A stretch of 64,000 nucleotides of DNA from a virus. Below the pieces are notes generated by a model. That model searched no databases. It was not told the origin of the DNA and saw nothing but the letters and a program-made list of their open reading frames with translations. The translations under genes and the position numbers were made by a program. Shown one piece after another: positions 1-7,398 of this stretch. The stretch lies in the IMG/VR virus record IMGVR_UViG_3300042542_003815, positions 1 through 64,000 of that record. One strand, 5' to 3'. Within the stretch, counting starts at the first letter, position 1; each line of letters starts with the position of its first letter.

Positions 1-203
1 GGAACAAGTATGTTGTCATCGACCCCAAGTACTTCCGACCGAATGAAGTTCCTTTCCTTCTTGGTGACCCATCGAAGGCAAAACGAGTTCTTGGATGGAA
101 GCCCAAGGTGGATATGAAACTTCTTGCGAAGATCATGTATAAATATGATTCGGCATTACTCACTAAACAGATGCAAGGATCTGCGCCTGCTCTTGTTGAG
201 TGA
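1..203 (+). CDS. gmd: GDP-mannose 4,6-dehydratase, C-terminal end (partial)
   Basis: The frame is open from base 3 to a TGA at 201-203, and the 5' part lies outside the window. The 66 visible residues match the C-terminus of GDP-mannose 4,6-dehydratases: a DPKYFRPNEV segment followed by LLGDPSKAKRVLGWKPKV, the conserved tail of this short-chain dehydrogenase family. The enzyme converts GDP-mannose to GDP-4-keto-6-deoxymannose, the precursor of GDP-fucose and other deoxysugars. Phages, including marine T4-like ones, sometimes carry such nucleotide-sugar genes, which may alter host surface glycans or supply sugars for virion glycosylation. A minus-strand glycosyltransferase at 23634-24830 could be a partner, but that is inference. 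Tandem hairpins follow the stop. The family call is strong; whether the full gene is intact cannot be seen. Confidence 0.88.
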   Translation, partial: NKYVVIDPKYFRPNEVPFLLGDPSKAKRVLGWKPKVDMKLLAKIMYKYDSALLTKQMQGSAPALVE

Positions 204-215
204 CCAAAAATTTTA

Positions 216-292
216 CCTTGTCCAAGGCTCCAGACAAGGAGTGTAGAAGTGGGCCAGGGCTGTGAGGAGAAATCTTCACAGCCTTCTTTATT
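216..292 (+). terminator. Tandem hairpins; strong GNRA-capped terminator
   Basis: Two hairpins follow the gmd stop. The first (216-239) has a 7-bp stem CCTTGTC/GACAAGG. The second (258-283) has an 11-bp stem with one G-U pair and a GAAA tetraloop, followed by TTCTTTATTT, so it fits an intrinsic terminator. The 26 bases of the second hairpin recur exactly, in inverted orientation, at 4106-4131 behind the capsid gene. Confidence 0.75.
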
Positions 293-339
293 TGACAAGT
301 GACCGATAACCAAACCTCCAAAAATTTAGACATAGGGTA

Positions 340-367
340 TTGACAAAGGTGGGCAAGACGCTATACT
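340..367 (+). promoter_or_regulatory. Sigma70-type promoter of the structured RNA
   Basis: A consensus -35 TTGACA (340-345) and near-consensus -10 TATACT (362-367) are separated by 16 bases. The predicted start is about base 374. No start codon with a ribosome binding site follows closely, and the transcript would run to the strong terminator at 624-662. Confidence 0.7.
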
Positions 368-373
368 AGGGGT

Positions 374-662
374 GTGACGAAAAGGGTTCGCCCCTGCCAA
401 GGTTCGCCAAGGCTAGTCACCTTCGTTCGTGCGAAGTAAAATAGGCCATTAAGCACGAAGCGTTGACTGATATTCAGTCAGATGGCATCTGACGCTTGGG
501 AGTGTATTCTAGACTTCACTCTCTGGTGTAAAATCGGCAGTTGCAACTGCCGTCAGTCAGTTCCGTACTCGCACTACGGGGCAAAGAGCCGTAATTATAA
601 AGGGGTGGTGCGAGAATCCCGAGACCCCCTGCACAGCCGGAATTGTGCAGGGGGTTCTTTTT
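374..662 (+). ncRNA. Candidate structured non-coding RNA, about 290 nt
   Basis: This 500-base gap between genes is bounded by a good sigma70 promoter and a strong terminator and has no convincing ORF. The predicted transcript is dense in possible stems: GGG-UUCG-CCC (384-393); GCC-AA-GG-UUCG-CC-AA-GGC (396-413); CUUCG/CGAAG (421-436); a junction closed by AAGCGU/ACGCUU (458-463 with 492-497) holding GACUGA/UCAGUC (465-479) and AGAU/AUCU (480-490); GAGUG/CACUC (500-521); an 18-bp perfect palindrome (535-552); CCGUA/UACGG (563-579). The 7-nt loop CUCGCAC (568-574) of that last hairpin is fully complementary to GUGCGAG (608-614). That would form a pseudoknot, or a nested stem if UACGG instead pairs with CCGUA at 589-593. 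I see no tmRNA, RNase P, 6S or tRNA signature. The structures were paired by eye and the function is unknown. Confidence 0.6.
624..662 (+). terminator. Intrinsic terminator of the structured RNA
   Basis: A 12-bp stem (ACCCCCTGCACA, 624-635, with TGTGCAGGGGGT, 644-655) has an 8-base loop and is followed by TTCTTTTTA. It is a textbook rho-independent terminator and marks the 3' end of the candidate RNA. Confidence 0.88.
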
Positions 663-668
663 ATACTC

Positions 669-696
669 TTGACTTCCATCAAAAGCAGGATAAAAT
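669..696 (+). promoter_or_regulatory. Sigma70-type promoter giving a leaderless mRNA
   Basis: TTGACT (669-674), a 16-base spacer and TAAAAT (691-696) end only 6 bases before the ATG at 703. The predicted transcription start falls at or within a base of the A of the start codon. Confidence 0.6.
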
Positions 697-702
697 AGTC
701 AT

Positions 703-1125
703 ATGACACTTCCATACGAACAATACATTTCCATGGTGAACACAAGGAACTTTCTGCTTTCTCTCTGTGACCCTAGTCGCCCTGACTATGTTAAGAAAAT
801 TCCGAGTGCGGTACGAAAGAATGCAATTAGATTACTCAAGCACTTTCCCATGGAATATGATGCCAATAACATCATTTCAGACCATGTTGAAATCTCCCAT
901 ATGAGGTGCATGGATCCTTCCATGGGACAAGATGTTATCTACTACAGCGCAAGACACCTAGGTTGGGTTTGGAATCACAGTAGCGGTAAAGTTATGGGAC
1001 CGTTCTTTGATAAGAGGACTGCCATGGACAGTTACAGGAAGTCCCAAACGGAGGCGCAGGATGCCCTGTGTGAGGACGGGGATTCCATAGGGGGCAGCGG
1101 GTGGGTTCCCGCAGACGGCCTCTAG
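703..1125 (+). CDS. BPSL0761-like small protein
   Basis: This 140-aa protein has an N-terminal half that matches the BPSL0761 family pattern of small hypothetical proteins: MTLPYEQ, then TRNFLLSLCDPSRPDYV, then VRKNAIRLLKHFP. That family is widespread in proteobacteria and their phages and has no established function. The C-terminal half (about residues 65-140) is a separate segment with several Trp/Tyr residues and a glycine- and acid-rich tail; I do not recognise it. The ATG at 703 is preceded by an in-frame stop at 691-693 and by a promoter whose -10 box ends at 696, so the mRNA appears leaderless and no Shine-Dalgarno is present. A 6-bp hairpin follows the stop codon. It lies outside the late block and is probably expressed early. 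Confidence 0.7.
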   Translation: MTLPYEQYISMVNTRNFLLSLCDPSRPDYVKKIPSAVRKNAIRLLKHFPMEYDANNIISDHVEISHMRCMDPSMGQDVIYYSARHLGWVWNHSSGKVMGPFFDKRTAMDSYRKSQTEAQDALCEDGDSIGGSGWVPADGL

Positions 1126-1126
1126 G

Positions 1127-1145
1127 AGGCGGCTAGACCGCCTTT
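1127..1145 (+). terminator. Weak hairpin terminator candidate
   Basis: AGGCGG (1127-1132) pairs with CCGCCT (1138-1143) around a 5-base loop, followed by only a short T run. It sits directly behind the stop of the preceding gene. A weak or partial terminator is plausible. Confidence 0.4.
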
Positions 1146-1172
1146 GCGATTCAAAAATATTCCCTATAGGGC

Positions 1173-1201
1173 TTGACAAAAGGATTTATAATCGTTATAC
1201 T
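1173..1201 (+). promoter_or_regulatory. Sigma70-type promoter giving a leaderless GTG mRNA
   Basis: Consensus TTGACA (1173-1178), a 17-base spacer and TATACT (1196-1201). The -10 box ends 6 bases before the GTG start at 1208. Confidence 0.7.
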
Positions 1202-1207
1202 TGAACC

Positions 1208-1453
1208 GTGAACGGAACTTCCCCTAATCCTCGTTTGACTCCACAAGACTCAGGACTCGTTTCCCCTGACGGTAAGAAGCGAATTCGTATTTCTCCGTCT
1301 GATGACAACAATGAATTGGTTTCCGTCTTCGTTTGGCGTGGGAATAAGACCAGTGGCGTTTGGAACTACTACGCTACGATGTCCAAGACCTATGCCCGAA
1401 TGATGTGGAAAGAACTCATCCGTCAGGGATACGCCACCCTCAAGTTCAATTAG
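1208..1453 (+). CDS. Small phage protein of unknown function, GTG start
   Basis: This 81-aa protein has a charged N-terminus, a beta-rich centre (VSVFVWRGN, VWNYYATM) and a helical end (KTYARMMWKELIRQGY). I do not recognise a named family. The start is well constrained: the in-frame codon at 1202-1204 is TGA, so GTG at 1208 is the first possible start, and no ATG occurs in frame until about codon 58. A near-perfect promoter ends at 1201, so the mRNA should begin at or next to the GTG. The 3' end overlaps the convergent lipoprotein gene by 8 bases. Early expression is inferred from the promoter type. Confidence 0.65.
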   Translation: MNGTSPNPRLTPQDSGLVSPDGKKRIRISPSDDNNELVSVFVWRGNKTSGVWNYYATMSKTYARMMWKELIRQGYATLKFN

Positions 1454-1847
1454 TGATAGAACTTGTTTGAGTAGTTTCTGTCTTTTCCTGATCCTTCTTT
1501 TCGTCAGAATCCTTATCGGCCTTGGCTGATTCAGCCTTGGCCTTTTCTTCATTGGATTTGAGTTTTCTAAAAGCATTCGCTGCTTTAGTTCTCTCAAATT
1601 CGCATGTCTCACACACGAATGGTTTCTTAATCAATTCTCTCCAAGTCCAAGCACCTACTAAAAGAAGTACCGGAAAATACCAAGCAATCCATCCCCATCC
1701 AGTTTCAATTTTGTTATTGTCTTTAATCTGTTCCTTTAAACTCATCATGATTACAGAATCTTGTGAAACAGAGGGAATGATTTCAGGTGCTGTGCAGCAT
1801 GAGCCGAGCAGAAGAAGGGCGAAAAACGATAGTAGTTTGATGTTCAT
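1446..1847 (-). CDS. Membrane lipoprotein, possible lysis (spanin-like) protein
   Basis: This 133-aa protein starts with a lipoprotein signal (hydrophobic LLSFFALLLLGSC with candidate lipidated Cys17). It has a second hydrophobic segment at about residues 52-70 (WIAWYFPVLLLVGAW) and ends in a long Lys/Glu/Ser/Thr-rich charged tail. It is directly downstream of a three-helix holin-like gene on the same strand, 12 bases apart, so I infer a lysis cassette in which this protein could act on the outer membrane. A lipobox plus an internal membrane helix with a charged tail differs from classical o-spanins, and from u-spanins, where the helix is C-terminal. A conserved CETCEF pair of cysteines follows the helix. 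The ribosome binding site is AAGGA. Membrane association is likely; the spanin role is a guess. Confidence 0.55.
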   Translation of the reverse strand: MNIKLLSFFALLLLGSCCTAPEIIPSVSQDSVIMMSLKEQIKDNNKIETGWGWIAWYFPVLLLVGAWTWRELIKKPFVCETCEFERTKAANAFRKLKSNEEKAKAESAKADKDSDEKKDQEKTETTQTSSITN

Positions 1848-4095: not shown

Positions 4096-4132
4096 AAATG
4101 AAAAGGGCTGTGAAGATTTCTCCTCACAGCCC
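4096..4132 (-). terminator. Capsid-gene terminator, inverted copy of the 258 hairpin
   Basis: On the minus strand an 11-bp stem with one G-U pair and a GAAA loop (4106-4131, extended by an outer G-C pair at 4105/4132) is followed by CTTTTCATTT. The 26 bases are the exact reverse complement of the plus-strand hairpin at 258-283. It would end gp23 transcripts. Confidence 0.75.
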
Positions 4133-6750: not shown

Positions 6751-7398
6751 TTAAAGTTTCGTTATAAATTTCTTGAATGCTTGCATGCATGCTTCCTCTA
6801 ATTTTCTGGAAGATGCTCTACTGATCTCACGGCGAATCTGATCAATTTCTCTTTCTTTTAGTATCCCATTCTCATAAATCCACTCTTTACCTTCCATAAC
6901 TCCACGAACAAATGCTTCGGGAGCAGAAGGATCTGCAACAATGTCGGCTGCTGTTGAAAGACGGAAATCATCTTTGACCACATTTATTCCATTCTTTTCT
7001 TCAATTGAACCAACGCCACGGCTTGAAACGCCGAGTTTGGCCCCCTCATCGATTAGATTTTTTACAATCTTTCCATAAGGGGTGTCCATAATCTTGGCTT
7101 TACCGTAAAAGTTTTTACCGTCAGCGTGAAGTTCGGTTATCATATGCGAAACCCGCTCAAGGTTAATAGTTGGACCCTCTGGGTGACCAAGTTCACCGAA
7201 TGCTCTTTTTTGATTAACGAACTCTTTGATGTAGTCATTCACCTTAGACTTTAACATCTCAAATGGATACTTCCTCTTATTTCGATTAGTGATATCTCCC
7301 TGAAGGAAAGTTCCCTCAATCGTGTACTTTTTGTCTCCATTTGCGGATGCTTCGCAAATGATCTCAATGCCTTCGTTTACTTCTGTGATTAGTTTCAT
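6751..7398 (-). CDS. gp21: Prohead maturation protease gp21
   Basis: This 215-aa protein (T4: 212 aa) is the serine protease that cleaves the scaffold and capsid propeptides during head maturation. The catalytic motifs of the T4 prohead protease family are visible: the His-containing GELGHPEGP at about residue 68 and the Ser-containing LGVSSRGVG at about residue 124, with the adjacent IVADPSAPEAFV segment. The N-terminal GTFLQGDITNRNKRKYP is also characteristic. It is placed between the core genes and gp22. An AAGGAAAT site precedes the ATG, and the gene is separated from the upstream ORF by only 9 bases. Confidence 0.94.
   Translation of the reverse strand: MKLITEVNEGIEIICEASANGDKKYTIEGTFLQGDITNRNKRKYPFEMLKSKVNDYIKEFVNQKRAFGELGHPEGPTINLERVSHMITELHADGKNFYGKAKIMDTPYGKIVKNLIDEGAKLGVSSRGVGSIEEKNGINVVKDDFRLSTAADIVADPSAPEAFVRGVMEGKEWIYENGILKEREIDQIRREISRASSRKLEEACMQAFKKFITKL

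Follow-up and report, generated by a model that had tools for sequence, protein, structure and literature searches.

The window analysed here covers the first 64,000 nt of a virus contig that is 67.6 kb long and T4-like in gene content. It encodes gp32 and a capsid protein about 62% identical to the capsid proteins of Pelagibacter phage HTVC008M and Methylophilales phage Melnitz. The 500-bp gap 3' of the end of gmd holds a promoter, a strongly folded stretch (374-622) and a terminator; beyond it lies the MTLPYEQ gene, the protein product of which (140 aa) matched no family in Pfam or PHROG. The features of this region are as follows.

3-203 (+), 3' end of gmd (GDP-mannose 4,6-dehydratase), truncated by the contig end; the complete orthologue is L083:1755-2792 (Pfam PF16363)
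340-367 (+), sigma-70-type promoter TTGACA-16-TATACT (-35 box 340-345, -10 box 362-367)
374-420 (+), module A, a 47-nt three-way junction
374-378/416-420 (+), closing helix of module A, GUGAC/GUCAC, followed by unpaired GAA
382-386/391-395 (+), arm 1 of module A with UUCG loop (hairpin 382-395)
396-402/407-413 (+), arm 2 of module A with UUCG loop (hairpin 396-413)
414-415 (+), unpaired UA between arm 2 and the closing helix
421-487 (+), Pistol self-cleaving ribozyme
421-425/432-436 (+), Pistol P1
427-431/454-458 (+), Pistol pseudoknot, P1 loop with the P2-P3 joining strand
445-447/484-486 (+), Pistol P2
463-470/474-481 (+), Pistol P3
489-493/556-560 (+), closing helix CUGAC/GUCAG of a three-way junction in the 3' domain (489-620)
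498-504/517-523 (+), arm 1 of the 3' domain
535-552 (+), arm 2 of the 3' domain, the 18-bp palindrome CGGCAGTTGCAACTGCCG
563-620 (+), pseudoknot or kissing hairpins: stem 563-567/575-579, loop 568-574 with 608-614, GGG 603-605 with CCC 618-620
623 to about 656-661 (+), intrinsic terminator with U tract
703-1125 (+), MTLPYEQ gene, with its own promoter at 669-696

The initial annotation had described this gap as a promoter-to-terminator unit encoding a structured RNA without a credible open reading frame, and the elements it named are all present at the positions it gave. The fold energy of positions 374 to 662 is -109.4 kcal/mol against -88.9 ± 4.9 in shuffled sequences (z -4.17; 0 of 200 as good). 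Relatives of the locus were located in IMG/VR through the neighbouring genes gmd and MTLPYEQ; one of them (L082) is nearly identical to the window, and two (L233 and L234) can be aligned with its RNA over the full length. The promoter, near-consensus as annotated, matches at 11 of 12 positions. A promoter scan is not significant by itself (6 sites versus 3.6 ± 2.1 in shuffles), and relatives keep both the promoter and its spacing from the RNA. The junction starts exactly 6 nt past the -10 box in 7 sequences of the window lineage, so that transcription should begin with the junction. The terminator, conserved in L083, L233 and L234, follows the stem-loops as had been proposed. L083 is 95% identical to the window as far as the terminator and diverged beyond it, which marks the end of the RNA unit; the extent of the RNA should best be taken as 374 to about 660. 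The longest frame across the region (482-706, 74 aa) is shifted in L083 by a 1-nt deletion and is therefore not a conserved coding frame.

Two other signals were encountered in the window. An identical 27-nt terminator hairpin, GGGCTGTGAGGAGAAATCTTCACAGCC, stands at 257-283 (+) after gmd and at 4106-4132 (-) after the major capsid gene, with near-copies also 3' of the capsid gene in L083 and L002. A promoter TTGACA-17-TATACT at 1173-1208 lies immediately 5' of the GTG start of an 81-aa gene, the mRNA of which may consequently be leaderless.

The centre of the RNA is a known ribozyme. When the whole window was scanned against Rfam 15, a search that the initial annotation had proposed, the sole match was the Pistol family (RF02679; 48 bits, cut-off 34.5, model positions 1-68 of 68). 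The annotation was thus right that the RNA is not a tmRNA, RNase P or 6S RNA (ARAGORN likewise found no tRNA or tmRNA), but it had missed the Pistol. The three stems and the pseudoknot of the class are all found in the RF02679 alignment, and A452, G453-C461, G460 and G462 align with purine 32, G33-C41, G40 and G42, the catalytic residues of the env25 Pistol (PMC6154101). The same residues are retained in six relatives (L083, L233, L234, L331, L358 and L372), the Pistols of which score 43-61 bits. Pistol ribozymes cleave between P3 and P2, which are joined by two nucleotides (PMC4604425). The joining segment has the required 2 nt in the window, and the cleavage site is predicted between A482 and U483. 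The scissile pair of the class is usually G-U, its identity being described as only modestly conserved; the window has A-U and the relatives have A-U, G-A or G-U. The scissile A-U of the window could lengthen P2, with GCCAU 445-449 pairing with AUGGC 482-486.

In predicted folds of growing transcripts, the Pistol helices form the minimum-energy fold at most of the tested lengths from 487 to 562; they are lost beyond 562, and the full-length minimum-energy fold disrupts the ribozyme. Given a published rate of more than 10 per minute (PMC6154101), cleavage of the RNA during transcription is plausible. In the minimum-energy fold of the full RNA, the 5' strand of P3 pairs instead with the 3' domain, an alternative that we considered and rejected: a mismatch breaks this pairing in L233 and L234, and P3 itself is kept there by a compensatory U-A to G-C change.

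Module A abuts the ribozyme on its 5' side. The two tandem UUCG hairpins enclosed in a two-armed junction, already recognized in the initial annotation, covary among homologues. A first alignment (A2), consisting of ten sequences aligned by plain MAFFT with diverged copies supplied by L331 and L333, fits a single three-way junction in which 9 of the 17 pairs changed on both sides. Searches with a covariance model and a degenerate pattern scan supplied further copies, for a total of 39 in 36 phage records, nearly every one with a single copy; two models of the junction, R1 and R2, were built. The covariation score of the 39 copies (30 distinct) was 0.489 versus 0.179 ± 0.015 in shuffled alignments, and structures slid along the same alignment scored 0.03-0.10; this alignment was fitted to the structure and its counts are biased towards it, and the plain MAFFT alignment A2 agrees. 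That CGAA, UUCG and CTAG hardly vary among loci from the pattern scan is likewise partly imposed by the search pattern; model searches free of this constraint yielded the L352 copy and those with a UAAC loop (L365 and L373). Covariation, one of the checks that the initial annotation had proposed, is seen in the junction, as it is in the loop pairing of the 3' domain described below.

One pair of the junction varies among A-C, G-U and G-C, an alternation expected of an RNA wobble pair, and G-U pairs are present in arm 1. These observations bear on whether module A acts instead as DNA, as a replication origin or a packaging or recombination site with inverted repeats that are not RNA structure. 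The usual single intergenic copy per phage record would suit such a site. However, the A-C/G-U exchange, the G-U pairs, the conserved promoter distance, the terminator and the fixed adjacency to a ribozyme all argue against it, and we regard a DNA site as very improbable.

No Rfam 15 family matched the junction at E values up to 10 (window positions 300-1250), and an Rfam search of L377 returned only a chance match at E = 3. Module A appears to be an RNA family missing from Rfam 15, separate from Pistol and recurrent in dozens of uncultivated phages. By blastn, the RNA locus had no DNA match in the phage collection and the junction none in named phages; nor was the junction found in two mycobacteriophages that bear a DUF7178 gene. 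Three strict-pattern matches in bacterial genomes had weak scores and were judged to be chance, as were four weak model matches among 199 genomes of one bacterial phylum, which fell inside long open frames in GC-rich DNA. A hammerhead at 374-420 was also rejected, since the core CUGANGA opposite GAAA is absent, only UA stands at that place in all copies, and Rfam gave no match.

The third part of the RNA, the 3' domain, is its most variable. No information on pairing comes from the closing helix CUGAC/GUCAG, which does not vary; in L233 and L234, both arms (one of them the 18-bp palindrome listed in the initial annotation) form the same helices from changed sequences. The pairs of 563-620 are kept through sequence changes in these two relatives and shortened to 5 bp in L083. 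The reported complementarity of the hairpin loop CTCGCAC (568-574) with GTGCGAG (608-614) is exact; a 7-nt loop on a hairpin of at least 5 bp with a perfect downstream complement arose in 7 of 5000 dinucleotide shuffles of 488-622, and a compensatory C-G to U-A change preserves the pairing in L233 and L234. The annotation had further proposed a switch, in which 575-579 would pair with either of two CCGUA copies. Both copies are present (563-567 and 589-593), but the hairpin stem is changed in L233 and L234, where the second copy can form only 3/5 and 4/5 pairs, and the switch is not supported.

It could be argued that this 3' domain is the functional RNA and that the junction and Pistol serve merely to generate and trim its 5' end, a task that ribozymes may also perform on phage tRNAs. 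The predicted cut at A482 falls exactly before the domain, other phage Pistols adjoin tRNAs, and theta ribozymes process phage tRNAs (PMC10879173). Yet no part of the RNA is less conserved than the 3' domain: L358, L372 and L237 have an entirely different one, L235, L236, L238, L315 and L331 have none, and all of these keep the junction. We consequently find a function seated in the 3' domain improbable.

The relationship between junction and ribozyme is close. They adjoin in seven records (the window, L083, L233, L234, L331, L358 and L372), with a gap of 0 nt in five and of 4 nt in L233 and L234. Since these 4 nt pair with upstream bases and lengthen the closing helix, no unpaired gap separates the two in any of the seven. 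Among 27 loci of other phage Pistols, none had a junction beside it except the known L083 copy.

The junction itself occurs in five settings. In the first, promoter, junction, Pistol, 3' domain and terminator follow one another (the window, L083, L233, L234, L358 and L372). In the second, promoter and junction are followed by a terminator or terminator-like hairpin and there is no Pistol (L235, L236, L238 and L315); L237 keeps promoter and junction with a plain UUCG hairpin in place of the Pistol. In the third (L331), promoter, junction and Pistol lead to a start codon, the ribozyme overlapping the AUG of the MTLPYEQ gene, and cleavage would leave an mRNA beginning 4 nt before the AUG. In the fourth (L352), the junction lies in a 5' UTR directly upstream of the RBS. 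In the fifth (L333 and about 20 contigs), it stands behind a stop codon with neither a Pistol nor an obvious terminator in about 20 phages; several of these loci adjoin a DUF7178 gene, and one (L364) carries gp32. A hairpin with a GUGGUG loop usually precedes the junction in this last setting. In L356-L389 it lies behind the stop codon just upstream of the junction, with a conserved loop and a covarying stem (CGAG/CUCG, CUGG/CCAG), and a long inverted repeat, CUACUAUC...GAUAGUAG, is found downstream.

Some of these settings invite a cis-acting interpretation, in which the junction would act as a sensor of a ligand or protein and, much as riboswitches or natural allosteric ribozymes do, govern the neighbouring Pistol, terminator or start codon so as to regulate the downstream gene (often MTLPYEQ). 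In each of the seven cases the Pistol touches the junction, the L331 ribozyme overlaps a start codon, a terminator-like hairpin separates the junction from the MTLPYEQ gene in L235 and L236, and the L352 junction directly precedes an RBS. Note however that the next gene after the RNA is on the opposite strand in L083, L238 and L315, with no co-directional gene directly behind, which means that the RNA is more than a leader; in the window and in L237, the MTLPYEQ gene is served by a promoter of its own; and most junctions lack a ribozyme or terminator switch, which places allosteric coupling below a processing role. On balance, we consider a cis-acting leader unlikely. It is similarly doubtful that the junction is a sensing or binding domain in control of the abutting Pistol, a natural phage allosteric ribozyme, or a new class of functional RNA aimed at a host factor.

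Several side observations were made in these neighbourhoods. A family of proteins of 465-508 aa, with no Pfam or PHROG match for the L083 copy tested, is encoded at L083 3314-4840 (-), L315 621-2039 (+) and L333 2256-3653 (-); in L083 and L315 its gene has the RNA gene on one side and the MTLPYEQ gene on the other. The junction-Pistol record L358 carries a tmRNA gene at 1431-1772 (+, 118 bits) and a SAM-lyase-like gene.

We favour the interpretation, with a probability of about 0.55, that the locus is a self-standing phage small-RNA gene, the 5' junction being the conserved functional unit that Pistol frees from the 3' RNA. The interpretation builds on computed features: a terminator, a promoter at a conserved distance, a ribozyme identified as Pistol, and a covarying junction in fixed contact with it. 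Transcription would run from about G374 to a stop past 656 and produce a transcript of three domains, with the 47-nt junction at the 5' end, the Pistol abutting it, and the variable 3' domain ending in the terminator. Cleavage in cells between A482 and U483 would release two RNAs: a 5' fragment of about 109 nt, made up of junction and ribozyme and ending in a 2',3'-cyclic phosphate, and a 3' fragment of about 178 nt with a 5'-OH. Because the junction is found without Pistol and without the 3' domain, and the latter is the most variable part, we infer that the junction carries the conserved function and that Pistol is a processing device that gives it its 3' end. Pistol would be one of several routes to a discrete junction 3' end, the others being a terminator right behind it or its place in an mRNA. 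The junction itself probably acts in trans, binding a protein or RNA.

Some evidence counts against a small-RNA gene. The roughly 20 stop-codon junctions have neither Pistol nor obvious terminator, and the L331 and L352 junctions are located in 5' UTRs, so that a pure small-RNA interpretation must invoke processing. The scissile A-U, in place of the commoner G-U, and the predicted disruption of the Pistol in the full-length fold also weigh against it.

Pistols are known to be associated with phages (PMC4604425), and the ribozyme of the window matches the whole RF02679 model, with its pseudoknot, three stems and catalytic residues. It differs in having a conserved RNA domain immediately 5' of it, within a unit bounded by promoter and terminator, and in its scissile A-U. 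A parallel in placement is offered by theta ribozymes, HDV-like ribozymes of gut phages, which also sit against a structured phage RNA and apparently make its 3' end (PMC10879173). They belong, however, to a different class and fold, their partner is a tRNA and not a three-way junction, and their activity is proven in vitro, whereas that of the window Pistol is predicted. GOLLD and ROOL are likewise structured non-coding RNAs of unclear function, some of them phage-associated (PMC12286853), but they are much larger and catalogued, whereas the RNA described here is about 290 nt long, modular and, outside the Pistol, without an Rfam family. What is known here is the Pistol class; what is new is its arrangement with a conserved, covarying RNA domain that Rfam 15 lacks. 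The locus looks like a real and so far undescribed phage RNA gene, more than the product of chance. Self-cleaving ribozymes are common near phage genes and their role there is mostly unknown; this locus offers a concrete and testable one, the formation of small-RNA ends.

Other phage Pistols have arrangements of their own. L129 (record G006) has three in tandem at 7261, 8091 and 9243 on the minus strand, about 0.8-1.1 kb apart, and the record of L152 has four. At L215, about 1501-1600 (-), a Pistol lies directly behind an apparent tRNA 3' end, GGTTCGATCCCTGGGCGTGCTACC, a placing similar to that of theta ribozymes. Finally, in the related phages L218, L221 and L222, a Pistol stands right behind a promoter-like sequence and is followed by a structured-looking stretch and tRNAs.
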